Shown here one piece after another: positions 7,983 through 58,187 of a stretch of DNA of 64,000 nt. The translations under genes and the position numbers were made by a program. The notes beneath the pieces were generated by a model. That model ran no database searches. It saw only the letters and a program-made list of their open reading frames with translations, and was not told where the DNA came from. How positions within the stretch are numbered: the first letter of the stretch is position 1; each line of letters begins with the position of its first letter. The stretch comes from Clostridia bacterium (lineage in GTDB: Bacteria; Bacillota; Clostridia; Oscillospirales; Acutalibacteraceae), in contig JAFYKZ010000010.1 in the NCBI GenBank assembly GCA_017537365.1, forward strand, positions 1 to 64,000, written 5' to 3'.

Positions 7983-8048
7983 GGGTGAGGCTTGCTCTCA
8001 CCACAAATTCGTAATTAAAACGGCAGGAGTAAACCCCTGCCCTACAAT
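7983..8048. repeat. Two adjacent short dispersed palindromes
   Basis: One palindrome (GGGTGAG/CTCACCAC, 7983-8004) and one related to the unit at 7378 (GGCAGG/CCTGCC then CTACAAT, 8022-8048) lie back to back. The second runs into the stop codon of the deacetylase remnant. Confidence 0.45.
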
Positions 8049-8293
8049 TATTCATCTTTAATTCTACACTGCGTTCCGTCGTGGATTATTTGGTAATTAT
8101 CTTTATAAATTAAATCGCTTATAAACACAAACTCATACCCATCATCTTTTAAACATTTTAATATATTTGGTAGCGCGGCAGGGGTGTGATCGGCATCATT
8201 GTGGAAAAGCACGATACTGCCGTTTTTAACCTTGCTTGTTACTCGCTTGCAAATACTGTCAGGCGTGGCATTGTCTTTCCAATCAAGCGAATC
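8048..8293 (-). pseudogene. Polysaccharide deacetylase, C-terminal fragment (81 residues) of the split gene
   Basis: The minus-strand frame reads DSLDWKDNATPDSICKRV, then VLFHNDADHTPAALP, then a GYEFVFISDLIYKDNY-like end and a stop at 8048. This is the C-terminal third of a CE4 polysaccharide deacetylase, including the LFHNDA histidine motif. There is no start codon: upstream of 8293 the frame runs into a TAG at 8318-8320 in island DNA. The missing N-terminal part lies 49 kb away at 57664-58187 on the same strand. Joined at the shared TCA, the two halves give a 255-residue protein, close to the roughly 254 residues of the spore protein PdaB. As it stands the fragment should not be translated. 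Confidence 0.9.
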
Positions 8294-8314
8294 ACCACTG
8301 GCAATGTTTGGAAA
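8268..8314. other. Left attachment site (attL) of the 49-kb island
   Basis: The deacetylase sequence ends at TCA (8292-8294). The island side carries the arm GCAAT..TTGGAAA (8301-8314). This arm mirrors TTTCCAA..ATTGC at 57643-57655, 20-21 bp from the shared core. The predicted crossover is the central TC dinucleotide at 8292-8293. Confidence 0.8.
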
Positions 8315-8353
8315 CCTCTATTTCACTCCTATTATTGCACATTAATATACACA

Positions 8354-8382
8354 AAAACCGCTTCTTTGTCAAGCGGTTTTTT
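8354..8382 (-). terminator. Bidirectional hairpin at the left island end
   Basis: The stem AAAACCGCTT/AAGCGGTTTT has T-runs on both sides. It ends the leftward gene at 8405 and insulates the attachment site. Confidence 0.8.
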
Positions 8383-8404
8383 CTTGTGGTTAAATTTAAA
8401 ATTT

Positions 8405-9976
8405 TTAACTAATTACTTCACCGGTTTTATTATCTACAGTTTCTTTTACGTTCCTAGTGTCAAGACTTACATCTTTAAAAGTTTCTTTAACTAAATTATT
8501 AAGCATAACTTCAAATTTTTCTTTTTCTGTTTCTTCTCTCATTTGTACAGGTTCATCCTTGTATAATTCAGAATAATTTTCTTTAAGTCCCATGCCTATA
8601 AAGTGGTCTAAATATGGTTTATCTCTGCCATCGTGTATACGTCGTACTATCACACGGTCATATTTTAATTCTTTAACTATTCTAGATAGTGTGCCTTGGG
8701 TCAATACTTTTTCATCGGGATAACAGTGATTTAAATATTTCTCAAATGCTTTATGCAGATCTCGTTTGGTACAATCTTTTCCTTCCCCAAAAGTGCAACA
8801 TATTTTAAGAAACTTCTTGACTACTTCTTTTTCGTCTACCGCATAAATATCTGTTATTTTTTTATTTATCTTAACTTCTTTTTTGCCTATGTATAAAAAT
8901 TCATTTCTTAACCAATCGGCAGATTTAGATGATTTTTCAATTATATTAAGTTCTTTAGAAAAAAGTTTAATATCCATAGATTTATACATGTTTCGCATTG
9001 TATTATATTTTCCTTCATCGGATGTAATATAAATTATTGGAAGAGTATTTTTTATAATTAATTCATCACCAAAAAATGGGCTATCAATACGAATTTTTTT
9101 GCCAGTCAACAATCTTCTAAAATATGAATATGCTTCTCCCATTTTATAAATAGTTTTTTCTTTAATAAGAACTAACGGCGGATTTCTTTTAAACTCAAGT
9201 TCTAAGAAATTCGCACGAACTTCCTTTAGACGTAAAGTATTAAAATCTGTCCAAACCAATTCTTCATGCCAATTTGTAAAGTGTATGTACGCTAAAAGAT
9301 CAAAATACTTTCTCAAAGGTTCATGAATTTTTTCATCAGCTAAGATCACAGTTGACAATGATTCTTTTGGGTTATATATAAGTCTATACGATATCTCTGC
9401 TAAAGTTTTAAGTTGATTAATGTCACCATAACATAATTGATATAAAAAATCCACTATTTCTTTTGGAGGACATTGAGGTGCAAAGTTTTGATTAAATTGG
9501 GGGAATTGCCTCGGTTGACAAGGCGGTGGTGTTAAAGCTTTAAAAGTGGTCAATAGATATTGATGCTGATATAACAATTGGAATCTTTGAGAATCAGAGG
9601 GCAAAGGTTCTTCTTTATAAAAATTTTCGTTAACAAAGTCAAGACTTTCTTTCCACTCGTTTAGAATGCGTTCGCCCCTTGAAACAGCCGTTGTAAATTT
9701 CTTGATTTTGCTATAATAATATTCTTTTTCATCATCATTTAAGCTGTCTTGAAAATGATCTTTTTTCATATAGCTTGTTTGATTATTTGCGATATTCATT
9801 ACGCATATATTTTCATTATAAGTGTATAGGAATTTATAGTCGTCTTTCAATTTTAGAAAAGCATCTTGATAATCTTTTAATCGTTTAGTCAAGTTAAGCT
9901 CTTTAAATTTATCACTATAATATACATTATGTTCCTTCATCAAATTTATTTTTTGGATTACGTCAAAAAGCTCCAT
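8405..9976 (-). CDS. Unknown 523-residue protein, possibly related to phage/plasmid primase-helicase C-termini
   Basis: I do not recognise this gene with certainty. The protein is long, hydrophilic and rich in Lys/Glu/Tyr, with no signal peptide or membrane segment. A region near residues 400-470 (CTKRDLHKAFEKYL, then LTQGTLSRIVKELKYDRV, then DKPYLDHFIGMGL) has the shape of the winged-helix domain that ends D5-like phage primases. The middle part (GKKIRIDSPFFGDELIIKN, LPIIYITSDEG) recalls their helicase core, but no P-loop Gx4GKS/T is visible. It could be a degenerate or initiator-like replication protein of the element. The ATG follows AGAGG with 8-bp spacing. It is divergent from the recombinase cassette, with a tandem repeat in front. 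Confidence 0.5.
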   Translation of the reverse strand: MELFDVIQKINLMKEHNVYYSDKFKELNLTKRLKDYQDAFLKLKDDYKFLYTYNENICVMNIANNQTSYMKKDHFQDSLNDDEKEYYYSKIKKFTTAVSRGERILNEWKESLDFVNENFYKEEPLPSDSQRFQLLYQHQYLLTTFKALTPPPCQPRQFPQFNQNFAPQCPPKEIVDFLYQLCYGDINQLKTLAEISYRLIYNPKESLSTVILADEKIHEPLRKYFDLLAYIHFTNWHEELVWTDFNTLRLKEVRANFLELEFKRNPPLVLIKEKTIYKMGEAYSYFRRLLTGKKIRIDSPFFGDELIIKNTLPIIYITSDEGKYNTMRNMYKSMDIKLFSKELNIIEKSSKSADWLRNEFLYIGKKEVKINKKITDIYAVDEKEVVKKFLKICCTFGEGKDCTKRDLHKAFEKYLNHCYPDEKVLTQGTLSRIVKELKYDRVIVRRIHDGRDKPYLDHFIGMGLKENYSELYKDEPVQMREETEKEKFEVMLNNLVKETFKDVSLDTRNVKETVDNKTGEVIS

Positions 9977-10229
9977 AAAACGCGCCTCTTTCCCTTAAAA
10001 TCAGGTGGACCGTAATGTAGTGGTGCACCGTAATTTATATTAACATATAGCCTATATCCCGTCAATACTGTCATATCTAAGATATATAATTATTAAACAT
10101 TAACAGTTATTATTAAATACTTTATTATACTTTTACACAGTAACGAACTTCTAAGTAAATGCATTTGTTATAACCCATAAAAACGATTGCATATTATAGA
10201 AATGAAACTATACTTGGAGGTTTTAAATT
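9977..10229. promoter_or_regulatory. Divergent control region between the 523-residue gene and the recombinase cassette
   Basis: No gene is seen in these 250 bp. Two copies of GTGSACCGTAAT (10005-10016 and 10023-10034) lie 18 bp apart, just before the leftward gene. This looks like a tandem operator or iteron. The rest is AT-rich with several TATA-like boxes and no clear single promoter. Confidence 0.4.
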
Positions 10230-10343
10230 ATGAATGTAACTAATACTTATTTAAATACTGAGCCTAATAAGCGTTTGGAAAAACAAACCGAGCTACACAG
10301 AAAATGTATATTGTTATTACAATCCTCAGACGAGAGGAGGTAA
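10230..10343 (+). CDS. 37-residue ORF translated just ahead of the large serine recombinase
   Basis: A short frame with a good ribosome site (GGAGG at 10216-10220, 9 bp before ATG). It encodes a polar, basic peptide (starts MNVTNTYLNTEPNKRLEKQ, ends SSDERR). Its last codons contain the GAGGAGG ribosome site of the recombinase, whose ATG lies 4 bp after this stop. The two are therefore very likely translated together. It could be a leader that sets recombinase dose, or a small recombination directionality factor, which in serine-integrase elements is often encoded nearby. No similarity supports either role. Confidence 0.55.
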   Translation: MNVTNTYLNTEPNKRLEKQTELHRKCILLLQSSDERR

Positions 10344-10347
10344 TGCT

Positions 10348-11790
10348 ATGAATGCAATATATGTGCGTCAATCTATTGATAAAAAGAACAGTTTGTCTAT
10401 CGAGGGGCAGATAGACATTTGTAAGAAATTAGCGGGAGAGGATGCGGTAGTATATTCTGATAAAGGCTTTTCGGGCAAAAACACAAACCGCCCTGCTTTT
10501 ACGGAACTTATAAATGCAGTGAAATCAGGACAGGTCGAAAAAATCTATGTTTATAGATTAGACAGATTCAGCCGAAGCATTGCCGACTTCAGCAGAATAT
10601 GGGAACTGCTGTCAAAACACAATGTAGAGTTTGTTTCTGCCACCGAAAACTTTGATACTAGCTCACCTATGGGCAGAGCGATGCTTAATATAGTTCAGGT
10701 GTTCGCACAGCTTGAAAGAGAAACAACAGCCGAGCGTGTAAAGGACAATTACATACACCGTTTTAAATTAGGTGCTTGGCCGGGTGGTCCTGCACCGTAC
10801 GGATTTGATTTAATCAAAACTTTTGACAAAGATAAGAAAATATCTTCCCTCATAAAAAACGAAAAATCCGAAACGGTTAAATTTATCTTCGAAGAATATG
10901 CCAAGCCTAAAACTTCACTCGGTAGCATAGCTAAAGAACTCGCCCAGAAAGGAATCCACGGTCCAAAACGTGAAGTTTGGGATAACGTAACACTCTCTCG
11001 CATTCTACATTCGCCTGTATATGTAAAAGCAAATCAAGATGTATATTTCTACTACCTTGCGCTCGGAATGCAAATAGAACATCCGCCAGAGGCTTTCAAT
11101 AGCATACAAGGTTGCAATATAATTGGCCGCCGTAACCGAACAAAGAACAAATATAATGATTTACATGGTCAGATGCTTACCGTTTCAGAACACGAAGGAT
11201 TTATCGAGCCTGATTTATGGTTAAAAGTTCAGTATAAATTATCCAACAATAAGCAAATAGCTAGGGCAAATGCCGGTAAGTACTCTTGGCTTACGGGGCT
11301 TCTAAAATGCGCCAAATGTGGTTATTCGCTTAAAATAAATTATTCAAAATCCGAAAATAGATTTTACTTGATTTGCTCAGGTAAATCTAACTTTGCAATT
11401 TGCGATTGTCGTGTTTCGGTGGATTTGCGTGAGCTTGAAGATTATATAGCAAACGAAATATCGCTAATGCTCAAAGAATCCCCGCCCGATGAAATTCCTA
11501 TATCAAAATCATTTTCAGATAAAATGCTTAGCATCGAGCAAAAAATCGAGCGGCTTATAAGTGCACTCGCTGAGAGTAGCGATGTAGTAGTTTCTTATAT
11601 AAACCATCAAATAGAACTACTGCACAAAGAGCGTGAAGAACTAATAAAACAAAGCCACAGCAGTCCTACAAAAATTAAAGCCTTGGATTTTAAAACACTT
11701 GACTTTGATAAAAAGAAACTTATCGCAGCCGAATTTATAGAAAGAATTTTAATAGAAGGCAAAAACGTAAATATAATCTGGAAAATATAA
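10348..11790 (+). CDS. Large serine recombinase (integrase/excisionase of the island)
   Basis: A 480-residue site-specific recombinase. The N-terminal resolvase domain has the nucleophile Ser9 in YVRQSIDKKNSLSIEGQ and the arginine motif YRLDRFSRS near residue 70. A Recombinase domain follows (about 155-270, GAWPGGPAPYGFDL). A zinc ribbon is at about 319-350 (CAKCGYSLKI ... CSG ... CDC), and a coiled-coil-like stretch lies near 385-435. These enzymes join attP and attB at a central dinucleotide and, with a directionality factor, reverse the reaction. It lies 2 kb from the left end of the island, whose ends show a matching inverted repeat, so it is the natural candidate for inserting this element. 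It starts with ATG 7 bp after GAGGAGG. Confidence 0.95.
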   Translation: MNAIYVRQSIDKKNSLSIEGQIDICKKLAGEDAVVYSDKGFSGKNTNRPAFTELINAVKSGQVEKIYVYRLDRFSRSIADFSRIWELLSKHNVEFVSATENFDTSSPMGRAMLNIVQVFAQLERETTAERVKDNYIHRFKLGAWPGGPAPYGFDLIKTFDKDKKISSLIKNEKSETVKFIFEEYAKPKTSLGSIAKELAQKGIHGPKREVWDNVTLSRILHSPVYVKANQDVYFYYLALGMQIEHPPEAFNSIQGCNIIGRRNRTKNKYNDLHGQMLTVSEHEGFIEPDLWLKVQYKLSNNKQIARANAGKYSWLTGLLKCAKCGYSLKINYSKSENRFYLICSGKSNFAICDCRVSVDLRELEDYIANEISLMLKESPPDEIPISKSFSDKMLSIEQKIERLISALAESSDVVVSYINHQIELLHKEREELIKQSHSSPTKIKALDFKTLDFDKKKLIAAEFIERILIEGKNVNIIWKI

Positions 11791-11831
11791 CCCTGCTAGA
11801 TTCTAACTGAAATCGGGCAGGGCTATTTTTT
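11791..11831 (+). terminator. Intrinsic terminator of the recombinase gene
   Basis: The stem CCCTGC/GCAGGG (11791-11822) is followed by CTATTTTTTT. Confidence 0.75.
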
Positions 11832-11888
11832 TATAGCAAAAGTTAAGTTTTAATAAATATTTAAAAACTAAAACAACATGTAAATAAA

Positions 11889-11938
11889 ATCAGGGGCCCC
11901 TTGGAAGAGTTAATTCTCTTCCCCTTGCGAATATATAG
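11889..11938. other. Candidate origin of transfer (oriT)
   Basis: A 20-bp inverted repeat (arms GGAAGAG/CTCTTCC, 11903-11922) is flanked by a CCCCTTG direct repeat and a GGGGCCCC palindrome, about 90 bp before the relaxase gene. An inverted repeat next to a conserved nick-like tail just upstream of a relaxase gene is the usual oriT layout. The nick site is not determined. Confidence 0.45.
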
Positions 11939-12030
11939 GATATGTGTTTAAAGCCGTGATAGAGACTTCTTATAGCATTATAATACATATCCTTGTATTT
12001 AATATAACATATATAAAGGAGATATATAGT

Positions 12031-12513
12031 ATGGCTATATATTACACAGTAAACAAACGAGAAAAATATCATGATTATGAATCAAAAGAGGATGTTGTGA
12101 ATTATATATTGAATCCTTTTAAAATTCATAATGGATATGTAGGATTTATGAATGTAGATCCTAGAAATCCAGCCCTTAGTATGCACCAATGCTCTGCTGC
12201 TTATGGAAAGGATAAAGGAATTCAGATAAGGCATTTTGTGGTTTCTTTTGGTGTGGGAGAAATAAAAGACTCTGCCACCGCAAATGCAATAGCACAAGAA
12301 TTACTGCTTTATATTGGAAGCCTCTACCCCACGTTTTATGCCGTTCACGAAGACAAAGAAAACATACATTTTCATATGGCATTTAACAACATCGGTTTAA
12401 CGGGTCAGCGTTACCATGGCACCAAGGCAGAATATTATGCAATAATCAACGCGCTCAAATCAATCCTCAGAAAATATGGTATTTATGTTTTACAACTCAA
12501 GTATTATAAGTAA
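12031..12513 (+). CDS. Small relaxase/mobilisation nuclease-like protein
   Basis: A 160-residue protein with the histidine-rich metal site of relaxases (VHEDKENIHFHMAFN: His106, His113, His115), preceded by RHFVVSFG. An N-terminal Tyr pair (Tyr4/Tyr5 in MAIYYTV) could hold the nucleophile. Relaxases nick oriT and lead single-stranded DNA into a recipient. It is short: it has only the catalytic domain and no C-terminal helicase, primase or coupling part. It might be a compact member or a fragment, but it has a good AAAGGAG ribosome site and no disabling mutation. The ATG at 12031 is chosen over an upstream ATG at 11944 that lacks a ribosome site. The oriT-like repeat lies just upstream. Confidence 0.65.
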   Translation: MAIYYTVNKREKYHDYESKEDVVNYILNPFKIHNGYVGFMNVDPRNPALSMHQCSAAYGKDKGIQIRHFVVSFGVGEIKDSATANAIAQELLLYIGSLYPTFYAVHEDKENIHFHMAFNNIGLTGQRYHGTKAEYYAIINALKSILRKYGIYVLQLKYYK

Positions 12514-12584
12514 CCGTTAGAAAATAACATATTATTACTGATATTTATAATTTTAAAAATATTCTTCTATGCAATATATAATTA

Positions 12585-12649
12585 TTGCCAATCCCCCGAT
12601 TTTCAATTATATATTATACCTATGAATCCCAAGCAGAAATGCTTGGGAT
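12585..12649 (+). promoter_or_regulatory. Promoter and leader hairpin of the amidoligase operon
   Basis: TTGCCA (12585-12590) and TATATT (12608-12613) have 17-bp spacing. The transcript would begin almost at once with a 9-bp hairpin (ATCCCAAGC/GCTTGGGAT, 12626-12649) followed by a T-rich run and then the ribosome site AGAAAGG. A 22-codon frame from 12622 runs through the hairpin and overlaps the amidoligase start. This arrangement could act as an attenuator or an mRNA-stabilising 5' structure. Confidence 0.5.
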
Positions 12650-12676
12650 ATCTTATTTTTAGAAAGGTATATATTT

Positions 12677-13795
12677 ATGAAAGAAAGTAAAACAAAATGC
12701 GAATCTTGTAGTATTTGCGGTTCGGTGCATACAGAAGATTTGCTAACCAAATTTGAGGGTGAACAACTTTGTCCTGAATGTTTGGCAAGAGAAACTTTAG
12801 TATGTTCCTGTTGCGGAAAAAGAATATGGTTCGTAAATAATTCAGGCACTTTTAGTTTACCGCTTTGTAGCAGTTGTTATGATGAGTATTACACTAGTTG
12901 TGTTGAATGCGGTAGAATCATACATCGTGAAGATGCTTATTACGATGACGGTAGCGATGAACCTTTATGCTACCGTTGCCATGAAAACAACCGCGGTCAT
13001 GATTACATTGAAGATTATTACTATAAACCCGAACCAATATTTTATGGAATCGGAAAACGTTTCTTTGGAGTTGAACTTGAAGTTGATTGCGGTGGTGAAT
13101 GCGACGATAATGCAGCTGCAGTTATGAGGATTGGTAATGGCAGCGGTCTAGAACATATTTATTGCAAACATGATGGTAGTTTAGATGAGGGTTTTGAAAT
13201 AGTAACACATCCTATGACTATCGATTACCATCTAAAAGAAATGCCGTGGAAGAATGTTCTAACCAGATTGAAGACATTGCATTATTTATCTCATCAAGCG
13301 GGAACTTGCGGTTTACATATTCATGTAAACCGAACATCACTAGGTGAGACCTATGAGGATCAAGAAGAAACTATTGCAAGAATACTGTATTTCTTCGAGA
13401 AAAATTGGGATGAATTACTTAAATTTTCGCGTAGAACTAACCATCAGTTACAACAGTGGGCAGCAAGATATGGTTATAAGGATAAACCAAAGGAAATTCT
13501 CGACCATGCTAAAAACGGTGGTAACAACGGCAGATACTCATGTATAAACCTATATAACAGTAACACCATTGAATTCAGAATGTTTAGAGGCACTTTAAAA
13601 CTAAATACAATAATAGCCACATTACAGCTTGTAAATAAAATCTGTGATGTGGCTTATTCTTTATCCGATGAAGAAATAAAGAATATGTCGTGGACAACAT
13701 TTGTTTCAGGATGTGAAGAACCTGAACTAATTGAATATTTAAAGGAAAGAAGAATCTATGTTAACGAACCCATAGATACCGAGGAGGAAATTTAA
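12677..13795 (+). CDS. Amidoligase-family protein with N-terminal zinc-binding region
   Basis: A 372-residue protein. The first 110 residues hold paired cysteines (CESCSICG, CPECLA, CSCCGKR, CSSCYDEY, CVECGR, CYRCHEN), probably several zinc knuckles. The rest matches the putative amidoligase fold (PF12224), related to glutamine synthetase: FGVELEVD at about 131-138, GLHIHVN at about 212-218, IEFRMFRGTL near 296-305. Such enzymes are predicted to form amide bonds using ATP. The next gene is a class II glutamine amidotransferase, a partner known for this family from comparative genomics (ammonia donor). Substrates remain unknown. The ATG follows AGAAAGG, and the gene belongs to an operon running to 15106. 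Confidence 0.82.
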   Translation: MKESKTKCESCSICGSVHTEDLLTKFEGEQLCPECLARETLVCSCCGKRIWFVNNSGTFSLPLCSSCYDEYYTSCVECGRIIHREDAYYDDGSDEPLCYRCHENNRGHDYIEDYYYKPEPIFYGIGKRFFGVELEVDCGGECDDNAAAVMRIGNGSGLEHIYCKHDGSLDEGFEIVTHPMTIDYHLKEMPWKNVLTRLKTLHYLSHQAGTCGLHIHVNRTSLGETYEDQEETIARILYFFEKNWDELLKFSRRTNHQLQQWAARYGYKDKPKEILDHAKNGGNNGRYSCINLYNSNTIEFRMFRGTLKLNTIIATLQLVNKICDVAYSLSDEEIKNMSWTTFVSGCEEPELIEYLKERRIYVNEPIDTEEEI

Positions 13796-13798
13796 GTT

Positions 13799-14740
13799 AT
13801 GTGTTGTTTATTTGGAATATTAGATTATAATCAAAGCCTTAATTCAAAGCAATTAAATAAGATGGTTGCCATACTTTCAAAAGCCTGTGAAGCAAGAGGA
13901 ACCGATGCTACGGGTATAGCTTATAACTTCAACGATAAACTATGTATTTATAAAAGACCGCTCCCTGCACATAAGCTAAAATATAAAACACCTGATGGTG
14001 TTCATTATATTATGGGTCATACCCGTATGACGACACAGGGTAATGAGAAATTTAATTATAATAACCATCCATTCTTAGGGAAAACAGATAATACAAACTT
14101 CGCGCTTGCGCATAATGGAGTGCTTTACAATGATTACCAGTTGAAACTTATAGAGCATTTACCCGAAACAAATATAGAAACAGATAGCTACGTTGCGGTA
14201 CAACTCATAGAGAAAAGAAGAACATTCAACACTGATAGTTTGAAATTTATCGCTGAACAGTTAGAGGGTTCATTTACAATTAGCACACTTGATGAATATA
14301 ATAATCTTAATTTTATCAAAGGCGATAATCCTATGTGCATTTACCATTTTAAAGATTTAGGTATCTATATCTATGCTTCAACCGATGAAATACTTTTAAA
14401 ATCACTTCAAAAAATGCCTATAAAATTAGGTAAAGGTGAAAAGGTAGATATTAAATGCGGTGAGATTTTAACCATAGATAAATACGGAAATAAAAGCCGA
14501 ACTGAATTTGATACCAAAAATCTTGATGGATATAGTTTTGCTTCATACATTTGGCGTACTTCAACACCAATTAGTGAAACAAAACCAAAGGTATATTCAT
14601 CATATAAAGAAGAATATTTAGATATGTTAAAAACCGAGGCAGAGTATTGTGGATACTCACCTGAACTTATCGATTCTCTTATAGCGGACGGATTTTCAAC
14701 TGACGATATAGAAGAAATGCTATACTGCGGTGCTTACTAG
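13799..14740 (+). CDS. Class II glutamine amidotransferase
   Basis: A 313-residue N-terminal-nucleophile protein. After Met removal the chain begins with Cys2 (MCCLFGILD), the catalytic residue of class II (GlnB/PurF-like) glutaminase domains. Also visible are EARGTDATGIA, GHTRMTTQG and FALAHNGVLYN, which build the glutamine pocket. It would release ammonia from glutamine for a partner enzyme. No sugar-isomerase or phosphoribosyl domain follows, so it is not GlmS or PurF. It starts 3 bp after the amidoligase stop with GAGGAGG inside the previous gene, so the pair is co-translated. The C-terminal 100 residues have no recognised domain. Confidence 0.88.
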   Translation: MCCLFGILDYNQSLNSKQLNKMVAILSKACEARGTDATGIAYNFNDKLCIYKRPLPAHKLKYKTPDGVHYIMGHTRMTTQGNEKFNYNNHPFLGKTDNTNFALAHNGVLYNDYQLKLIEHLPETNIETDSYVAVQLIEKRRTFNTDSLKFIAEQLEGSFTISTLDEYNNLNFIKGDNPMCIYHFKDLGIYIYASTDEILLKSLQKMPIKLGKGEKVDIKCGEILTIDKYGNKSRTEFDTKNLDGYSFASYIWRTSTPISETKPKVYSSYKEEYLDMLKTEAEYCGYSPELIDSLIADGFSTDDIEEMLYCGAY

Positions 14741-14764
14741 CACCGCAAAGAAAGGAGAATTTAT

Positions 14765-15106
14765 TTGAAAATATTAGTAGTTGAACCATTAAAAGAACCT
14801 TACGAAAAAGAAATAGATGGAACGCTAGAAACAATGCAAGAAATCGTTGGCGGGTTAATTCAAGCAATTTATCCTTTTGACCACCCTGAAATCGCGCTTA
14901 TTTGCAATGATGACGGAAAGTTAATGAAATTGCCATTAAACCGAGCGTTATTTGATATGGATGGCAAAATTGTAGATATAATCGCAGGCACGTTTTTTCT
15001 TTGTTCAGCGCCAACCGATTCTGAAAATTTTGGAAGTCTTACTGATGAGCAAATTGAAGAATACAAAACAAGGTTTGAAGCGTTAGAAATATACATAACA
15101 CGATAA
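14765..15106 (+). CDS. DUF3846 family protein
   Basis: A 113-residue soluble protein that looks like DUF3846, a small family common on Firmicutes mobile elements and of unknown function. Typical strings are KILVVEPLKEPYEKEIDGTL, LIQAIYPFDHPEIALICND and LPLNRALFDMDGKIVDIIAG. The start is a TTG 7 bp after AAAGGAG. It is the last gene of the amidoligase/amidotransferase operon, which suggests a shared task, but DUF3846 genes also occur without such partners. Confidence 0.75.
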   Translation: MKILVVEPLKEPYEKEIDGTLETMQEIVGGLIQAIYPFDHPEIALICNDDGKLMKLPLNRALFDMDGKIVDIIAGTFFLCSAPTDSENFGSLTDEQIEEYKTRFEALEIYITR

Positions 15107-15195
15107 AGGCAAACTAAATAGATATAACTGTATATTATATCTATGCTTAAGACCGGACTAGTGCCGTGACCGGAGCATAAAGGAACGTAAAAATA

Positions 15196-15300
15196 TATCC
15201 CATTAGGGTACACTCTAATGAGATACCAAAATTATGTGCCAATAGGGTTGGTTTTAGCGCTTTGGGATATGCCAAAATAAAATCATACCCTATTGGGAAT
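15196..15300. other. res-like recombination site for the adjacent resolvase
   Basis: Several related palindromic units lie just before the resolvase gene: ATTAGGGTACACTCTAAT (about 15205-15222), then GCCAATAGGG (about 15238) and ACCCTATTGGGA (about 15287-15298). Repeated inverted subsites ahead of a small resolvase are the standard res layout, and the last units may also repress the gene. Confidence 0.5.
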
Positions 15301-15312
15301 TGGAGTGATAAT

Positions 15313-50925: not shown

Positions 50926-50935
50926 TTCACTTTCC

Positions 50936-51658
50936 TCACAGGTGTTTTATTCGAGGGAGATATTTCTTGATAAGCGCCTTATTAAACTCAGCTCCGCCAT
51001 CAACATTTCCGCTTTTATAAATTGGAAGCTCTGCGCCATTTTTTGCCGCTTTTTCTGCCGCTTCTATCAAAACGGATTGCAATATAAAGGAACTAGCCGC
51101 AGTTGAAACGCTACCCATTTTAACATCAGTTCCGGTAATATCCATAACTGCATCACCATGCGGAACACAGTTATCAATATACATATCACTACACTGATAA
51201 AGTTTTGGCATATCGGTTTTATCATTAAAATAAGCACTCGATACAACCGAAATATTAGGAACACCGTTTTTAGTGGCAACAGCCGCCATTTCGCAAGGTA
51301 CGGCATTTTTGCCACTTGTTGAAACAGTAATCAAAATATCTTTTTCGGTTATGCAGTATCGCTCAAAAATGCTTTCAGCGATACCGCTCATTTTTTCCAT
51401 TTTACTGCTTTTTGCTGCACCATTATGTAACATCAAATCGGTATCAAGCATAGCGCTAACATTAACAAGTCCTCCTGCTCTATAAAAACAGTCTAGTCCT
51501 ATTAAATGGGAATGTCCGCAACCAAAAATGTAGATTATACCATCATTTTCAATTACCTTTGATACCATATTTGCAGCAGTTTCAATTTTTTCTTTTTGAG
51601 TGTTTTTAATTTTTTCTAAAACATTTAATATTTCAGAATAATACTTTTCAAAAATCAT
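50936..51658 (-). CDS. SIS-domain phosphosugar-binding protein (UPF0309-like), copy 2
   Basis: A 240-residue SIS protein (IIYIFGCGHSHLIGLDCFYRAGG, ILITVSTSGKNAVPCEMA). Unlike copy 1 it keeps the STSGKN phosphate loop, so it is the better candidate for the active isomerase. The CGHSH motif is typical of UPF0309. Its start overlaps the stop of the TIM-barrel gene by 4 bp. The pair may form a heteromer, one subunit catalytic and one regulatory. Confidence 0.88.
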   Translation of the reverse strand: MIFEKYYSEILNVLEKIKNTQKEKIETAANMVSKVIENDGIIYIFGCGHSHLIGLDCFYRAGGLVNVSAMLDTDLMLHNGAAKSSKMEKMSGIAESIFERYCITEKDILITVSTSGKNAVPCEMAAVATKNGVPNISVVSSAYFNDKTDMPKLYQCSDMYIDNCVPHGDAVMDITGTDVKMGSVSTAASSFILQSVLIEAAEKAAKNGAELPIYKSGNVDGGAEFNKALIKKYLPRIKHL

Positions 51659-52686
51659 TTTTTAAGCACTCTTTTATAGTTTCTACCAATGTTATCCCAA
51701 AGTTCAAGCGGATCTTTTGCAGCAACTATAGTTCCGTAACCGCCGCGATATGTCCAAGTAGCAAGACGGTCAACGCCTAATTCTTCATACATATCAACAA
51801 CCTTGTCAATTTGAGCAAAGTCATCAGGGCGCTTATTATAACCCATAAGCCAACGTTCACTTTGTTTACCGTATTTCTTAGCCATTTCAACAGTACGCTC
51901 TGTAATCTCACGGAAGAAACTTTCAGGCAATGTCCAGTTGATAATGGTGGTTGAGAATACATCGAAATAAGGGCAAGAAGCCACCATATCCCAATTATCA
52001 TAACCACGAAGCTCGGTTACATAGTAGCTGTTAAGTGTTGCGTGAACACAGCAAGTGATTTCAAGGTTAGGATTATATTCCTTAAGTGCTTTTGATGTAT
52101 CAGATAGAGTAAAGAGAGCCTCACGCCATCTAAACTGCTTAACATCATCATTCATAAATTTAGGCATTTCATAGCCATAATATTCTTCAAATTTCTTCAT
52201 ACATTCAGGACAACGACAAGCCCAATCATCTCCTGCGCCACCTGTTATAGATGCATAAGATTTTGGATATGCATAGTGTGGTTCATCCCAGAAGAAACCG
52301 TCAACTTCGGTATTCTTTGCTATTTTAAGGCAAATGTTTTTAAAATAATCGCGGAAAGAATTTGTATTAAAACAAGCAGCATTTAAAACCTCGCCTGTGT
52401 ATGCAGATACTTGACGATGGTGAATATTATTCTGCAAGAATAAACTTACTTGCTCACCACCGAAGTATTTACCAATACCCCAAGGGTCTGCAATAACGCG
52501 AAGACCTAAATCGTGAGCTGCTTTAACAATATTGTTTAGGTTTGGGAACCAGAAGTCCATATCAAATTCTGTGATAGCCAAAATAACTGTATCACATCCA
52601 TGGTCCTTCATTTCCTTAAAATCTTCGATTGCATGTTCTACATAGTTCATTCCGTAGTAACTAACAGCAGTATGTTTAATTGACAT
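51655..52686 (-). CDS. Putative TIM-barrel glycoside hydrolase, family unclear
   Basis: A 343-residue cytoplasmic protein with a barrel pattern: CDTVILAITEFDMDFWFPN, GLRVIADPWGIGKYFGG, EVDGFFWDEPHYAYP (a likely catalytic Asp/Glu pair), LEITCCVHATLNS, and RLATWTYRGGYGT at the last strand. A CRCPECMKKFEEYYGYE segment looks like the metal- or substrate-loop CxxC seen in some uncharacterised barrel glycosidases. It fits between GH20 and the SIS gene, and overlaps the latter by 4 bp. I cannot name the GH family. Confidence 0.6.
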   Translation of the reverse strand: MSIKHTAVSYYGMNYVEHAIEDFKEMKDHGCDTVILAITEFDMDFWFPNLNNIVKAAHDLGLRVIADPWGIGKYFGGEQVSLFLQNNIHHRQVSAYTGEVLNAACFNTNSFRDYFKNICLKIAKNTEVDGFFWDEPHYAYPKSYASITGGAGDDWACRCPECMKKFEEYYGYEMPKFMNDDVKQFRWREALFTLSDTSKALKEYNPNLEITCCVHATLNSYYVTELRGYDNWDMVASCPYFDVFSTTIINWTLPESFFREITERTVEMAKKYGKQSERWLMGYNKRPDDFAQIDKVVDMYEELGVDRLATWTYRGGYGTIVAAKDPLELWDNIGRNYKRVLKK

Positions 52687-52700
52687 AATTATTTCTCCTT

Positions 52701-54092
52701 TTAAAAAGTCTTGTTTCCTATTTCATAAGGCGCCCAACCTGATCTCTCATAATCACCATGAAGATTACTTGTTTTCCTGATTAGGTTCGCTGTTTTTGTT
52801 CTAATTTCAGCATAAACAGGTATGTTTTCATTACTAGTCCAACACAAATCAGCTGCTCTTGTAACATCAGGCATACCTGAAGAAAGTGTATGCCAAGTTG
52901 TATGCAATAATCCAAAAAGTGAGTAATCGCTAACCGTTTTTGCACACGGCACTAATGAATCGTCGCCATACACTATATCCCATGGACAAAGCATAACATC
53001 GAAACCTGCTTCTTTAAAAACAATAGCTGTTTCTACCGGTGCGGTTTTTACATTATATTGCCAATCGGCAATTACAATGTTTTTATCAAGATTTAGTAAA
53101 ATCTCTTTTTGTACCGCTTCATCAGGGCAAGACATAATATAGCAATTATCTTTATTAAATTCCGGTTTTTCTGCAATAAACATATCTCCCCAAACTATTG
53201 CACGCCTACCATCCATTTTAAGTTCATCGCTGATTTCATTTAAAAATTCTGTTACTATATGTGCAGTTTCAAGATTTAAATCAAAATTATAGGACTCATC
53301 GCAGCCCAGATGGAAATATTCACCATCACCGCAAAGTTCCATAAGTTCATTACGAATTTGGCGCATAAGATTGCGAACAGCATCAGTTTCAATTCTCCAT
53401 GTCCAACCGTCATCACTGAAAAGCGGTTGCAATTTCAAATTTTGATCCAAAACAACATGTTTACCGTGAACAACACGAGAAGCCGATGCGTGTCCCCAAT
53501 GGTTAAACATCGGAATTATCTCAATTCCCATATCGTTTGCTTCATCAATCAACGGCTTTATTTCGTCTTTTGTAAAAGCGTGAGGCCATGCAAGTTCTTT
53601 CAAAGCATCGAATTTAAGCATTCCCCAAAATTCAATTACGATATGTGTATATCTTAATGCGCCGCAAAGTCGAATAAATTTTTGAATCTCATATAACTTC
53701 GTATCAGGGAAAACACAAAAATGCACCATTCTGTTACGAATAAGCGGAGAAAATGCCTTAGAGCAATACTCTATTCCAAATAATTCCTGTCCTTCGTCAG
53801 TTGATATAACTTTTATTCGTTGAAGCAAATCCATATATCCGCAAATAAGACCTTTTTCATCATTTGCATATACCGCAACACCATTAGCATCTACTTGTAT
53901 GTAATAAAGTTCTTTATTGATTTTTACTATCTCCGGTTCTCCAATAACGAACTGATAGCACTCAATATTCTCGACACTAATATTAGAAGAATGACAAGTA
54001 AAACCATCCCAAAATTCCTTAAAAACGGTTTTGTTTAAGCAAGAGTTTGCCTTAGCTTGAATTTGCTTTTTAAAATAATAGATATTTTCCAA
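52701..54092 (-). CDS. GH20-like beta-N-acetylhexosaminidase
   Basis: A 463-residue enzyme without signal peptide. The family 20 catalytic Asp-Glu pair stands in YFHLGCDESYNF near residue 260, preceded by IIPMFNHWGHASASR and followed by RRAIVWGDMFI. The N-terminal 90 residues fit the small alpha/beta domain that precedes GH20 barrels. It would remove beta-linked GlcNAc/GalNAc from imported oligosaccharides by substrate-assisted catalysis. It is the first gene of the leftward enzyme operon and is divergent from the AraC gene at 54296. Confidence 0.82.
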   Translation of the reverse strand: MENIYYFKKQIQAKANSCLNKTVFKEFWDGFTCHSSNISVENIECYQFVIGEPEIVKINKELYYIQVDANGVAVYANDEKGLICGYMDLLQRIKVISTDEGQELFGIEYCSKAFSPLIRNRMVHFCVFPDTKLYEIQKFIRLCGALRYTHIVIEFWGMLKFDALKELAWPHAFTKDEIKPLIDEANDMGIEIIPMFNHWGHASASRVVHGKHVVLDQNLKLQPLFSDDGWTWRIETDAVRNLMRQIRNELMELCGDGEYFHLGCDESYNFDLNLETAHIVTEFLNEISDELKMDGRRAIVWGDMFIAEKPEFNKDNCYIMSCPDEAVQKEILLNLDKNIVIADWQYNVKTAPVETAIVFKEAGFDVMLCPWDIVYGDDSLVPCAKTVSDYSLFGLLHTTWHTLSSGMPDVTRAADLCWTSNENIPVYAEIRTKTANLIRKTSNLHGDYERSGWAPYEIGNKTF

Positions 54093-54118
54093 CTGTACTC
54101 ACCCCCTTTTCAATTACA

Positions 54119-54212
54119 AGTATAATGTATTTTTCAAATAAAGTAAACTCACAAAACGACAGTAAAAGTGGATATTTCAACACTTGAATTTTTTTCCATT
54201 TTAATATATAAT
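54119..54212. promoter_or_regulatory. Divergent promoters between the GH20 operon and araC-type gene
   Basis: Rightward, TTGAAT (54184-54189) and TATAAT (54207-54212) have 17-bp spacing. Leftward, TTTACT (54142-54147) and TATACT (54119-54124) also have 17-bp spacing. The inverted pair TAGTG(T)GGT...ACCACTA just after the rightward -10 could be the binding site of the AraC-type regulator. Confidence 0.6.
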
Positions 54213-54295
54213 AGTGTGGTATCAAATGTGTTATGCTAACCACTAAGTGTAAAAAACATTACAAATAATATTTTTTAGAAATCTAGGTGATTTTT

Positions 54296-55045
54296 GTGTT
54301 TTTAAATTTTGACAATTATGTTATTGATATAACTAACATAACTCATGTTTCTTGGAAAAAACAAAAGGTTACCATTCCTCCAAGAGAGTTTTGCGCCCTT
54401 GCTTTTAGAATAAAAGGAAGCGGAAACATTAGTTTCAACCAAAACAAGATATCTTTATCAACAAACGATGTATTATATTTACCGCAAAATATAGGCTACA
54501 CCGCCAAATACAGTGATACCGAAATTATTGCGATTCATTTCAAAACCGCAAATTCAGACAGTTTTGCTAAAGTTTTCTCACCAAAAAACTCCGAAAAAAT
54601 CTACAAACTTTTCTTAGAAGCACTTTATATTTGGCAAGCAAAAGAAGTAGGTTATCAAGAACTTGCTATATCCGTTTTATATAAAATACTCGGAACCCTC
54701 AGCAAAGACAATCAAGAACAAACTTTGCAAAACAATTTCATAAATGCGCAATCTATAATCAATTCAAGATTCAGAGATAGCTCATTATCTATTAAAGACG
54801 TTTGTCGCGAAGCAAAAATCTCCGAAACTTATTTTAGAAAACTGTTTTCAGAACATTTCGGCAAAACTCCAACCGCCTATATTACACAACTAAGAATCGA
54901 ACACGCCCAAAACTTAATCTCTAACGGCACCAGTATCAATGATGCTGCATACTCTAGCGGTTTTAATGATCCTAAATATTTTTCACGGGTAGTAAAAAAG
55001 CACTTAAACTGCACGCCAAAAGAGTTCAAATCATACGGAAAATAA
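54296..55045 (+). CDS. AraC-family transcriptional regulator (second)
   Basis: A 249-residue regulator. The N-terminal cupin-like domain comes first (FCALAFRIKGSGNISFNQNK, TNDVLYLPQNIGYTAKYSD). The double HTH follows (LSIKDVCREAKISETYFRKLF; INDAAYSSGFNDPKYFSRVVK) and ends in the AraC signature. It is the only gene of the locus read rightward and shares a promoter gap with the enzyme operon, so it probably activates or represses that operon. The start is GTG at 54296, five to six bases after AGGTGA. Confidence 0.9.
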   Translation: MFLNFDNYVIDITNITHVSWKKQKVTIPPREFCALAFRIKGSGNISFNQNKISLSTNDVLYLPQNIGYTAKYSDTEIIAIHFKTANSDSFAKVFSPKNSEKIYKLFLEALYIWQAKEVGYQELAISVLYKILGTLSKDNQEQTLQNNFINAQSIINSRFRDSSLSIKDVCREAKISETYFRKLFSEHFGKTPTAYITQLRIEHAQNLISNGTSINDAAYSSGFNDPKYFSRVVKKHLNCTPKEFKSYGK

Positions 55046-55092
55046 CTAAAAACGAAATCTCTATTCTCACAAGTTCTTACGATATGATAGCC

Positions 55093-55121
55093 TTGACTCG
55101 TTTTAAATTTTATGCTATAAT
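55093..55121 (+). promoter_or_regulatory. Promoter of the PHP-domain gene
   Basis: TTGACT (55093-55098) and TATAAT (55116-55121) are separated by 17 bp and face the gene at 55158. Confidence 0.75.
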
Positions 55122-55157
55122 GCGCTCGTATTAATGAAAAATAGGAGGTAAATTTCT

Positions 55158-55835
55158 ATGTATAAGTATGAAACACATTCACACACTTCCCCTGTCAGCA
55201 GATGTGCAGGAGCATCTGTTGAAGATACCGTAAAGTTCTACAAAGAAATGAACTACGACGGTATTTTTATCACTAATCATTTTCTTGGCGGTAATATAAA
55301 TATTGATTCTTCTCGTCCCTATGAAGAAAAAATAGAATATTATTTTTCAGATTATGAAAAAGCTCTTGAACTAAGCAAAGAAATTGGTATAAAAGTTTTT
55401 TGCGCTCTGGAAATGCCACATGATGGTAGTGATTTTTTGATATATGGCCTAGATAAGAAATGGTTCCTTAAGCATCCTGAAATTATGGATATTGAAAAAG
55501 ATAAAAAACTAAATTATCTAAGAGAAAACGGCGCTTTTATCGTTCATGCGCATCCATTCCGTAATGCCGTTCAGTATGATGATGTTAAACTATTCCAAAA
55601 CAATGTAGATGGCGTAGAAATCATAAACGCTTCAATGGATGATTATAAAAACGATTTTGCTAAAATCTATGCCGAAAAGAATAATCTTATTATGTCCGCA
55701 GGTTCTGATAATCATTTCGCTGAACACAAAAAAGATTTAGCAGGTGTGAGTTTTGATAAACCAATTTTAGATGAACAAGATTTTATAAATCAGCTAAAAG
55801 CCGGAAAAGCAAAAATTTTTACAATTAGCCGCTAA
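55158..55835 (+). CDS. PHP-domain phosphoesterase
   Basis: A 225-residue PHP protein. HSHTSPVSRC (metal His pair), FITNHF, ALEMPH, VHAHPFRN and SAGSDNHFAEH make the usual set of metal ligands. PHP enzymes hydrolyse phosphate esters or nucleotides. It has its own consensus promoter, an AGGAGG ribosome site and a terminator, so it is separate from the glycan operons. A histidinol-phosphatase-like or nucleotide-phosphatase role is possible. Confidence 0.85.
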   Translation: MYKYETHSHTSPVSRCAGASVEDTVKFYKEMNYDGIFITNHFLGGNINIDSSRPYEEKIEYYFSDYEKALELSKEIGIKVFCALEMPHDGSDFLIYGLDKKWFLKHPEIMDIEKDKKLNYLRENGAFIVHAHPFRNAVQYDDVKLFQNNVDGVEIINASMDDYKNDFAKIYAEKNNLIMSAGSDNHFAEHKKDLAGVSFDKPILDEQDFINQLKAGKAKIFTISR

Positions 55836-55883
55836 TTTTTCAAATAAATATAAAACCATTTGAAAAATAATCAAATAGTTAAA

Positions 55884-55927
55884 AAAGCCGCCAAACAACA
55901 AATTTTTAGATGTTGTTTGACGGCTTT
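55884..55927 (+). terminator. Intrinsic terminator after the PHP gene
   Basis: A 17-bp stem with one mismatch (AAAGCCGCCAAACAACA with its complement) is followed by TATATTTTG; the other side has AAAAAA, so it can also work leftward. Confidence 0.8.
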
Positions 55928-55953
55928 ATATTTTGTTTGTAACAAAATTGAAA

Positions 55954-55988
55954 AAATGTCAAGTAAAAATAGATTTTACTTGACATTT
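55954..55988 (-). terminator. Perfect 15-bp inverted repeat, terminator of the HipA-like operon
   Basis: The arms AAATGTCAAGTAAAA and complement with a 5-base loop are followed on the minus strand by TTTTTTC. It ends the leftward operon at 56051. Confidence 0.7.
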
Positions 55989-56050
55989 AAAGGTTGATTT
56001 TTTGTTTATAAAGTTTTTTCATAATAAATTTCTACTGAATTTGTTTTATT

Positions 56051-56872
56051 TTACTTATTAAACTTTTGTCTTGTTTTTATGCACTCAACAACTCGGTCTG
56101 TTATTGTTCCTCTATCACGTTCTGAGTAGTAATCAAGCAAAGGTTTAAGTTCGAATACAATCTCTTGAGTAGTAAGTTGGGGCATAATAAGTTGTCTGCC
56201 GTAAAGTTCACAAGCAGTATTCATTTGCCTTGTAAAACTTGTATTAAACGGACGAGCTACAATATCCTTAATTAACCCCTTAGGTTGAATGTCCATTGGA
56301 GAATATTGGACGTTTGAAAGCAAAGCGGCACCGTTGTCAAAAATGGGGCAGTAACTGTACTTTCCGTTCTTTTCAATAACCGCAATGTTGTTAAGGTGTC
56401 GGTCATCGTTTAGGAACAATGCATCTATTTCAAAAAGCAATGTTAAATATTGTGGGAATTCTTTTAGTCCTGTGATTTTGGCTGTTTCCTCGGCGATATA
56501 CAGAATACGTTTTTTGTCGCTTGAAAGTTTTTCAAGAGTTGTTTTTAACGAACCACCGAGATTGCGAGAGAATAGGTGACTAATGGTAATAATAGACTCA
56601 CCCGATTTTAAGAAATTTTCGCTTGAACAACCGGTGCGCTCCCTACCGTGAACCTTTAGCTTTTCCATCTCATATTTAACAAAATCAAAAGGCGTATCTT
56701 TTTTAACATTGCTTTTTTCTAGCAGTTTGGAAATTAAGGCTTCGGCAAGTGCTTCATAGCCAAATTGGTCCAATTTATACCACTTGTTTGTATCTTTTTC
56801 ATACCATTTTTCCTGGTTGCCTTTTGATGAAGTTTCGGCAACTTTATCGTTTGTAAAAAGTTTAACCGTCAT
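56051..56872 (-). CDS. HipA-like kinase (toxin candidate)
   Basis: A 273-residue protein with the kinase core of HipA: FLNDDRHLNNIAVI (catalytic Asp and Asn, residues 153-166) and CPIFDNGAAL (metal-binding Asp179), in the order of the HipA C-terminal domain. It lacks the HipA N-terminal subdomain, so it is shorter than classical HipA (about 440). HipA kinases phosphorylate a tRNA synthetase and stop growth. It shares one base with the stop/start of the upstream AbrB-like gene, the usual antitoxin-toxin order. Its place next to the right attachment site suggests element maintenance. Confidence 0.72.
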   Translation of the reverse strand: MTVKLFTNDKVAETSSKGNQEKWYEKDTNKWYKLDQFGYEALAEALISKLLEKSNVKKDTPFDFVKYEMEKLKVHGRERTGCSSENFLKSGESIITISHLFSRNLGGSLKTTLEKLSSDKKRILYIAEETAKITGLKEFPQYLTLLFEIDALFLNDDRHLNNIAVIEKNGKYSYCPIFDNGAALLSNVQYSPMDIQPKGLIKDIVARPFNTSFTRQMNTACELYGRQLIMPQLTTQEIVFELKPLLDYYSERDRGTITDRVVECIKTRQKFNK

Positions 56873-57402
56873 TATATCTCCTCCAATCTAATCCATTGGT
56901 CATCTTCAGCCATTCTTCCTTGTGTCTTTTTAATAATCTCTAAGGGATCATATTCTTCAACACCGATTGTTTCAAGATACTCTCGTAGTCCACTGCGACT
57001 ACGAGGTATGCAACGCTCTTCTAAAAAGTTTTCAAAGTCTTGCCAAGTTGGAACTTCGTTTTTACCAAAAGCTGTTTTAACAAGATGGTCAGTATAATTT
57101 TCCACGGCTAAATTTTGCTCGGTGTAGTCGGCACAAATTTTAGTGCAACTGATATCACCATTAAAAAATTCTATCAATAACAATTTGTGACTTGCATCTT
57201 TTTTAGCTTTAATAAAAGAATCTAAAGGCAAGTGGGGTGTTATAATAATCTTATCACCATCAAAACATAAATCAATTTTATGCTCGGTTAGATGCATTTT
57301 GTTTATCCATTTAGAAGGTAATGAGATTTTATAAGTTTTACTTCCTTTACCAGCTGTTCCTCCTGCGGAACTCGTTATAACTTTACTAATTCTTTTCTCC
57401 AC
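56872..57402 (-). CDS. AbrB/MazE-like antitoxin candidate
   Basis: A 176-residue protein. The first half has the swapped-hairpin DNA-binding pattern (YKISLPSKWINKMHLTEHKI ... DGDKIIITPH). The second half is acidic and ends GRMAEDDQWIRLEEI, which could bind the kinase encoded next. A palindrome (TATTCG...CGAATA) fills the spacer of its promoter, as expected for an autoregulated toxin-antitoxin operon. The start is GTG, only about 9 bases after the expected transcript start, so it is nearly leaderless. Confidence 0.68.
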   Translation of the reverse strand: MEKRISKVITSSAGGTAGKGSKTYKISLPSKWINKMHLTEHKIDLCFDGDKIIITPHLPLDSFIKAKKDASHKLLLIEFFNGDISCTKICADYTEQNLAVENYTDHLVKTAFGKNEVPTWQDFENFLEERCIPRSRSGLREYLETIGVEEYDPLEIIKKTQGRMAEDDQWIRLEEI

Positions 57403-57417
57403 AGTATCACCAATTAA

Positions 57418-57446
57418 AATATATCATATTCGATACGAATAGTCAA
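57418..57446 (-). promoter_or_regulatory. Promoter and operator of the AbrB-like/HipA-like operon
   Basis: On the minus strand, TTGACT (57441-57446) and TATATT (57418-57423) have 17-bp spacing. The inverted repeat TATTCG/CGAATA at 57427-57441 lies between the two boxes, so binding there would block RNA polymerase. Confidence 0.7.
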
Positions 57447-57569
57447 GAATTTAAAAGAAGTAGTAAAAATACCACTCCTTTTAGCAATAAACATTAATTT
57501 CAATAGTGTAAAATATTTATATTAGAGTTTAACCGACCTGCTTTTTAGACGTCGGCTGAGGATTTTTCA

Positions 57570-58187
57570 TCAGCAGAGTTTCGGCAAACCTTCTATTTTT
57601 GGGGGGAATTTTGACTCCTCACAGCCCCAGTATTCATGCACCTTTCCAACTATTGCGTACGGTTCAACATCCCATTGAATTGTATCCATTTTAAGCTCTT
57701 TTGTTGTTTCTAAAACGACATTATCATAATCGCCATACGGGGCGCGCAAAAGTGTTGGTGTTTTGCCGGTTATATCGGCAATTTTTTTATTGCAGCTTTC
57801 TAATTCATCAATAATTTGTGTTTTTGATAGTTGCGTCATGTGAGGATGTGTGTTAGAATGGTTTTGTATCTGATGCCCTGCATCTGATAAAGCTTTAACC
57901 GATTCGGGATATTTATCCACCCACGCACCGACCACGAAGAAGGTTGCCGGAACATCATATTCCTTCAAAATTTTTATAAGCTGCTCGGTATCGTCATTCC
58001 CCCAGGCCGCGTCGAAAGAAATTGCAACTTGTTTTTTATCGGTTTCTACGCAGTATATAGGCAATTTTCGGTCTGTGTTTGCGAAAACACTAACCGAGCC
58101 CACCACCGTAACCGTTATGCCTAAAACCAAGCATATCATTAGCATTATTTGCTTTTTTGTTACAATAAAAAGCTTCATATTTTTCAC
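57570..58187 (-). pseudogene. Polysaccharide deacetylase, N-terminal fragment (174 native residues plus island-coded tail)
   Basis: The frame begins with a membrane/signal segment (KKQIMLMICLVLGITVTVVG), then the CE4 motifs: VAISFDAAWG (catalytic Asp), NHSNTHPHMTQ (metal His pair), LLRAPYGDYD. Native sequence stops after IQWDV at 57666; the last 31 residues (PYAIVGKVHEYWGCEES onward) come from the island. The missing C-terminus with the VLFHNDA histidine is at 8048-8293. The truncated product keeps the signal and metal site but lacks the last strands and catalytic His, so it should be inactive. Restored length is 255, like the late-sporulation protein PdaB. Confidence 0.9.
57643..57690. other. 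Right attachment site (attR) of the 49-kb island
   Basis: The island arm TTTCCAA..ATTGC (57643-57655) meets the shared core TCA (57664-57666), then native deacetylase DNA. Within the native sequence, CAAT lies 8 bp outside the central dinucleotide on both halves of the reconstructed attB, a weak symmetry expected for a serine-integrase target. Confidence 0.8.

Follow-up and report, generated by a model that had tools for sequence, protein, structure and literature searches.

A candidate mobilizable element carrying glycan-use genes at a recurrent insertion site inside a PdaB-like deacetylase gene of a Clostridia bacterium

Introduction

When the two ends of a polysaccharide deacetylase gene lie almost 50 kb apart, are they one gene interrupted by an inserted element, and can the element leave again? 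This question is raised by the window, the whole stretch of 64,000 nucleotides that was analyzed (contig JAFYKZ010000010.1 of the Clostridia bacterium assembly GCA_017537365.1). A preliminary description of the window proposed that an island carrying a glycan-use locus splits the gene and is cut out by a serine recombinase during sporulation. We compared the locus with other genomes of the genus. The island is very probably an integrative mobilizable element that was inserted by its own recombinase into a PdaB-like gene at a recurrent target.

Results

One deacetylase gene in two halves

The N-terminal part of the gene is located at 57666..58187 and the C-terminal part at 8048..8293. Both are on the minus strand, as had been proposed, and both were identified by family-model match. 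From ATG 58178, the likelier start, the N half has 171 codons and the C half has 81 codons plus the stop; joined, they form one frame of 252 codons. Counted from GTG 58187, the joined gene has the 255 codons given in the preliminary description, and its claim of in-frame rejoining was confirmed. The last residues of the N half are ...IQWDV, at 57666. The trinucleotide common to both joints is TGA on the minus strand, and its GA (57665-57664 and 8293-8292) is probably the dinucleotide at which crossover took place. Neither half has a stop or frameshift.

The halves tile the family model TIGR02764 end to end (N half 1-128, C half 129-191). Among the models listed, this PdaB model was the best match of the joined protein, which scored 222.7 bits where the cut-off is 237.4; two uncut relatives scored 208 and 223 bits. 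The earlier suggestion of a CE4 protein of the PdaB type holds as the nearest family. The protein misses the equivalog cut-off and is called PdaB-like here, rather than filed as PdaB. The joined protein also aligned through the joint with a solved CE4 deacetylase. The stretch LFHND, which we take to be the C-terminal active-site stretch, falls on the C half beyond the joint, so the N half alone is predicted to be inactive.

A 95-residue query across the joint was searched against 70 genomes of the genus (E up to 1e-9). It matched without interruption in 46 genomes and partially in 16, and 8 had no match. Since 46 of 70 genomes match the query as one stretch, the split of one gene is beyond chance. 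The same 46 uncut orthologues supply the joined gene that the preliminary description had asked for, and they rule out the alternative it had named, two unrelated genes that merely adjoin the island. The close relatives are metagenome-assembled Clostridia or Oscillospiraceae, from ruminant and other animal guts where the source was stated.

The partial matches were of three kinds. Half of them (G000, G037, G021, G026, G034, G084, G086, and G089) run from the N half into element sequence at the core, and all eight break after the identical codon. Five have only a C half behind an attP half (G015, G016, G018, G022, and G080); the N half of G022 stops with its contig at the core, and that of G015 stops earlier than the core. 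The other three (G008, G010, and G096) are cut by contig ends, and G008 reads normally for 9 bases beyond the core before its contig ends.

Both flanks are shared with the sister species G037, at protein identities of 96% for HtrA and 99% for Fe-ADH. Because G037 has the same neighbors on both sides, both ends of the island belong to one locus. G037 carries a different element, of 13 kb, at the same base of the deacetylase gene.

An element with its own recombinase and relaxase

The inserted element spans 49,372 bp from core G to core G (8294..57665), as delimited by the joint sequences and the attP dyad. Toward the C half end, on the plus strand, it encodes a large serine recombinase of 480 aa (10348..11790) with Resolvase, Recombinase, and Zn_ribbon_recom domains in Pfam, followed by a MobA/VirD2-like relaxase of 189 aa (11944..12513; Pfam Relaxase, 74.4 bits). 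Because it combines a large serine recombinase, a relaxase, and att sites, the island is best read as an integrative mobilizable element that carries a foreign glycan locus.

The glycan-use cargo occupies about 38 kb on the minus strand (16394..54092, from profile scans). It includes GH94- and GH20-type enzymes, SIS and PfkB proteins, large surface proteins, four ABC permeases, two binding proteins, and an AraC regulator. The GH94 protein had no homologue above 33% identity in the 70 genus genomes (E 1e-40). The GC content of the element is 0.32-0.37; the left flank has 0.38-0.40 and the right flank 0.36-0.37, barely above the element. The preliminary description had called the passenger a glycan locus rather than a prophage. 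The glycan cargo was borne out, but the island is more than a glycan locus, with its relaxase and other mobile-element genes. A prophage reading was rejected: Pfam analysis of the main element proteins, with PHROGs not run, gave no phage structural family.

Other genes of the element were also compared with those of G037. The recombinases are 77% identical and the relaxases 41%. Downstream of the relaxase, on the plus strand, are an amidoligase-family protein (12677..13795; 68% identical), a glutamine amidotransferase-like protein (13799..14740; 57% identical), and a small serine resolvase of 199 aa (15262..15861; 87% identical), all assigned with Pfam. The amidoligase and amidotransferase pair (12677-14740) is kept in the element core of both genomes. 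Because the flank proteins are 96% and 99% identical but the element proteins only 41-87%, the two elements probably arrived separately.

Directly before the recombinase is a 37-aa open reading frame (10230..10343, plus strand), and a similar one precedes the G037 recombinase; such a frame was seen in both type-A elements (window 10230-10343; L024:14698, minus strand). Its product may be an accessory factor, and is a candidate directionality or regulatory peptide. Beside the C half is a protein of 523 aa (8405..9976, minus strand) to which the profile scans assigned no function; it had no Pfam or PADLOC match, and its NCBIfam primase match was below the cut-off. At the other end of the element, the cargo closes with an AraC-type regulator and a PHP-domain protein (54287..55835, plus strand; profile scans). 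The last genes at the right end are a two-gene module weakly like the candidate defense system PDC-M03 (56051..57402, minus strand; A 48.5 bits, B 17.7 bits).

Attachment sites at a recurrent target

The attL-type junction (57640..57690, minus strand) consists of the gene N half, GA, and the attP right arm ACCGTACGCAATAGTTGGAAAGG. The attR-type junction (8268..8318, minus strand) consists of the attP left arm AGGTTTCCAAACATTGCCAGTGGT, GA, and the gene C half. The attP rebuilt from these joint sequences is a dyad centered on GA, with 15 of 22 positions symmetric. None of 5000 shuffles was as good, and the best of 16 other centers in the same attP reached 9. The attPs of G037, G026, and G034, centered on the same GA, were symmetric at 13, 18, and 17 of 22 positions, and 4, 1, and 0 of 5000 shuffles were as good, respectively. 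The recombinase domains and the fitting attP dyad agree with the serine recombinase that the preliminary description had proposed.

The recombinases at this site fell into separate lineages. The first comprises those of the window and G037. The second comprises those of G026, G086, G089, and G084, which are 92-99.6% identical, and the third is that of G034, 49% identical to the second. At one base of one gene, four attPs belonging to three recombinase lineages thus come together. The comparison of sequences showed the deacetylase site to be a recurrent target in the genus for no fewer than three recombinase lineages. When 58 N halves were placed on a tree (50 counted uncut and 8 split; contig-end N halves and duplicate records excluded), at least 7 changes were required, though this was a quick tree in which 25 of 55 inner branches were poorly supported. 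In the 70 genus genomes, the only copies of the window recombinase at E 1e-100 were its own and that of G037.

The target looks like a sporulation gene

A Spo0A domain (Spo0A_C) was found in 55 of 61 genus genomes, among them the own genome of the window; in a control set of 14, the model matched B. subtilis alone. The own genome also encodes a SigK-type sigma factor with 298.3 bits, just below the cut-off of 298.65. The SigK model also matches other sigma factors; 14 of 61 genomes were above the cut-off, and none of the 14 controls was. The check for spo0A, sigE, sigG, and sigK suggested in the preliminary description was thus answered for the Spo0A domain and a SigK-type factor. As described in PMC4703394, B. 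subtilis pdaB belongs to the sigma-E regulon, and PMC3789822 describes three C. difficile polysaccharide deacetylases as controlled by sigma-E and SpoIIID; both sources are cited for these passages.

Comparison of upstream regions revealed a promoter-like conserved motif, TAATATAATACAAGC-N7-CATA, upstream of the deacetylase gene (58213..58238, minus strand). The motif ATATTATACAAGC-N7-CATA is conserved upstream of the deacetylase; of 62 distinct upstream regions, 54 were anchored and the other 8 left out. A sigma-E-like pattern was present in 21 of the 62 regions, where 50 shuffles gave 0.3 on average. Patterns for sigma-G, sigma-K, and sigma-A were present in 2, 6, and 0 regions, against 0.2, 1.4, and 0.3 in shuffles, respectively.

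In the own genome, ACAAGC-N7..9-CATA precedes both the deacetylase gene (window 58170-58240) and sigK (L129), and similar sequences precede the split sigK of three relatives. Genome-wide, the motif had 19 matches against 7 in a reversed control. Judged by eye, the deacetylase and sigK were the only genes whose actual start it immediately precedes, so the case for its specificity depends on these two. In some relatives an inverted repeat that covers the deacetylase ribosome-binding site follows the motif, also as judged by eye. From these comparisons, we infer a putative sigma-E promoter with a SpoIIID-like box. Looking in PMC517825 for the letters of the presumed SpoIIID consensus gave no match. 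By its family likeness and the motif in common with sigK, the deacetylase looks like a mother-cell sporulation gene.

The sigK gene itself is split near residues CIEN in G001, G082, and G091 (L130-L135), and in each of them its C half adjoins a large serine recombinase. On contig C26 of the own genome, sigK is uncut. Contig C18 has a further C half of sigK, a diverged one, next to a serine recombinase of 611 aa (L128:10464-12630); no second sigK N half was found in the own assembly. The sigK-side recombinases of G001 and G082 are 97% identical to the 611-aa protein, and that of G091 is 53% identical. The split sigK loci are probably skin-like elements in the same genus.

Second C halves behind the gene

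A second deacetylase C half was found 0.5-2.6 kb behind the first at 14 distinct loci, in 11 of the 70 genus genomes and at L065, L075, and L085. Besides these three, the loci are L013/L032/L060, L019/L033, L024, L029, L030, L044/L139, L054/L145, L056/L144, L062/L143, L138, and L142. Two further loci were excluded: L042, where the C-half pieces are 4 kb apart with ordinary metabolic genes between them and a type-A arm, and L064, with only the end of a C half. Between the two C halves are one or two main open reading frames, mutually unlike by eye. Pfam analysis of 7 of the 14 stretches gave a barstar-like protein, an ATPase/STAS-like protein, DUF6883, one zinc ribbon below the cut-off, and three without match. 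Several proteins of the other stretches start like lipoproteins. Five recombinases used as queries had no match inside the stretches.

A type-B attP half abuts the second C half at 11 of the 14 loci by pattern and at L024 and L033 by eye; L054 has none. The pattern, derived from these same sites, had 25 matches in 1.86 Mb of loci, duplicate records included. Twenty-two were followed by a C half in frame, three by decayed or shifted copies, and none was elsewhere. Decayed or frame-shifted C halves after a type-B attP half were seen at L005:3273 (= L049:6249) and L138:2123. Such copies may be left from earlier events at this site.

At 11 of the 14 loci, the gene is completed by the first C half. 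G089 and G037 have a full element before the unit, and G080 has no N half. Between the window and G037, the dS values of the C halves were 1.67 and 2.03, and those of the N half and the flank genes were 0.23-0.50. Because the dS of the C halves far exceeds that of the N half and flanks, the C halves have had a history of their own. In 48 uncut genes, the correlation of nucleotide distances was 0.51 within the N half and 0.23-0.27 between N and C halves. Synonymous distances gave 0.22 versus 0.21, no difference, in a test that is weak because synonymous sites are near saturation.

These loci can be explained by cassettes. A unit lacking an integrase would consist of a complete C half, one or two unrelated genes, and an attP half. 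Its insertion at the core GA would restore the gene with a new C-terminal third and displace the old one downstream. Such units could travel with full elements at the site, of which G089 and G037 have examples, by a canonical route: excision between attL and the distal attR would take a unit along, and later excision between attL and the proximal attR in a new host would deposit it. The 3' third of the deacetylase gene would then serve as the entry site for an integron-like cassette system driven by serine integrases, a proposal for and against which we find the scales level. Against it, the first and second C halves of one genome were mutually nearest in 9 of 11 pairs, with identities of 0.80-0.95 (two further pairs, out of register, were dropped and L054 was excluded). 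Because of these 9 pairs, local conversion, duplication, or homologous exchange is a real rival.

Discussion

Insertion and excision of the element

An integrative mobilizable element that inserts by its own recombinase would account for the locus as follows. The large serine recombinase would have joined a circular attP, a dyad around GA, to an attB inside the PdaB-like gene, leaving the order N half, element, C half. The same recombinase, with a directionality factor, would excise the element precisely and restore the gene. We infer that the window copy still excises.

Several observations weigh against this explanation. The relaxase is short (189 aa). The attB is itself not symmetric: 7 of 22 positions agree, a level reached by 1699 of 5000 shuffles. 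In the element we identified no directionality factor, and viral contigs, the only collection searched, contained no free attP; relatives of the window recombinase were not found in them either. The own assembly holds only the two halves and no joined copy of the gene, and the own contig is continuous through both joints.

Contig ends may bear on excision. In G030 and G010, a contig stops precisely behind the core GA, and the next G030 contig overlaps there by 141 bp, which suggests that the sequence continued in more than one way in that sample. At L028, L038, L034, and L040 (G030, G010, G022, and G008, respectively), the contig end lies at the core or no more than 9 bases from it. Such ends suggest that joints of more than one kind occurred in the sampled populations, and could also reflect strain mixture.

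How and when the element leaves can be explained in several ways. It may behave as an ordinary mobile element that is excised occasionally, for transfer only, in carriers that tolerate a broken, dispensable deacetylase, with no part played by sporulation. We rate this close to an even chance. The presence of a relaxase and a recombinase suits it, as does the uncut gene in many relatives, and the 92-99.6% identity of recombinases at the site in four species points to horizontal spread. It fits less well with the two halves free of stops and frameshifts and with a gene restored in 11 of the 14 cassette-type loci, which together suggest that losing the deacetylase costs something.

The second explanation, which we hold more tentatively, is programmed excision. 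The element would be removed in the terminal mother cell, the deacetylase would be made only there, and the element would stay intact through the spore. The passages cited from PMC4191935 and PMC5595907 describe this for skin, SPbeta in spsM, gin in gerE, and vfbin, all in mother-cell genes. The ACAAGC motif before both the deacetylase gene and sigK, the excess of the sigma-E-type pattern over shuffles, and the sigK genes of three genus-mates, split beside a serine recombinase, are consistent with it. So is the dN/dS of the N half against G037, which was as low as 0.016 (28 synonymous and 2 other changes; flank genes 0.042 and 0.024), although this may mean only a young insertion. The uncut gene in 46 of 70 genomes speaks against programmed excision. 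A pattern scan of the element and comparison of the regions upstream of the recombinases also gave no consistent sporulation promoter, and established none for the recombinase.

It is improbable that the element is stuck, an immobile remnant that killed the gene permanently. The own assembly does hold the integrated form alone, but the recombinase is full length, the att arms are symmetric, and the halves have no stop or frameshift. A chimera of two unrelated pieces from assembly or binning is scarcely credible: the draft assembly comes in 31 contigs, and its close relatives were assembled from metagenomes, but both flanks match one locus of G037, which contradicts a chimera, and the joint agrees with the att dyad and the recombinase.

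Implications

The insertion of a mobilizable element into a PdaB-like gene suggests that the link between serine recombinases and sporulation genes, described in Bacillus and a few Clostridia, would also hold in uncultured gut Clostridia, for a new target gene, and for mobilizable elements with nutrient-use genes. An island for nutrient use would then be coupled to a spore gene, and vegetative cells would retain the sugar genes. If excision is timed, the dying mother cell would give them up. With one base used by distant recombinases and by units that may restore the gene, a cassette system run by serine integrases would become testable.

Comparison with known systems

Among the matches listed in the open-access literature, we found no element in pdaB or another CE4 gene and no serine-integrase cassette system. 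The sources below are cited for the passages that bear on each comparison. The preliminary description considered a non-prophage passenger in a sporulation gene to be new. This did not hold, because gin in gerE of Bacillus cereus ATCC10987, an element of 28.6 kb with no phage genes, had been published (PMC5595907), and the claim is reduced accordingly. As far as seen, what is new is the target gene, the mobilizable glycan cargo, the hotspot, and the candidate cassettes.

Like gin, the window element is non-phage, tens of kb long, equipped with serine recombinases, and located inside what looks like a mother-cell sporulation gene; both have an attP inverted repeat around the crossover dinucleotide and allow precise rejoining (PMC5595907). 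Excision of gin during sporulation was demonstrated, whereas the window element is known here from sequence alone. The two also differ in target gene, host class, relaxase, and glycan cargo, and the passage cited reports gin without structural conjugation genes (PMC5595907).

With skin in sigK of B. subtilis and C. difficile, the element shares a large serine recombinase and a split, restorable sporulation-type gene (PMC5025042). The cargo of skin is prophage-like and its target is different. The C. difficile directionality factor is known and is under sigma-E and SpoIIID control (PMC5025042), in contrast to the window element, in which none was identified. SPbeta in spsM resembles the element in its serine integrase, its envelope-polysaccharide target gene, and precise restoration, but SPbeta is an active phage (PMC4191935), and the main proteins of the window element gave no phage structural family in Pfam.

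Streptococcal integrative mobilizable elements, some with serine integrases, share the combination of integrase, relaxase, cargo, and site-specific insertion (PMC5357655). Unlike these, the window element has a sporulation-type CE4 gene as its target and a 38-kb glycan locus as its cargo. In anatomy, the window element fits gin, skin, and SPbeta; the timing demonstrated for their excision may apply to it as well.

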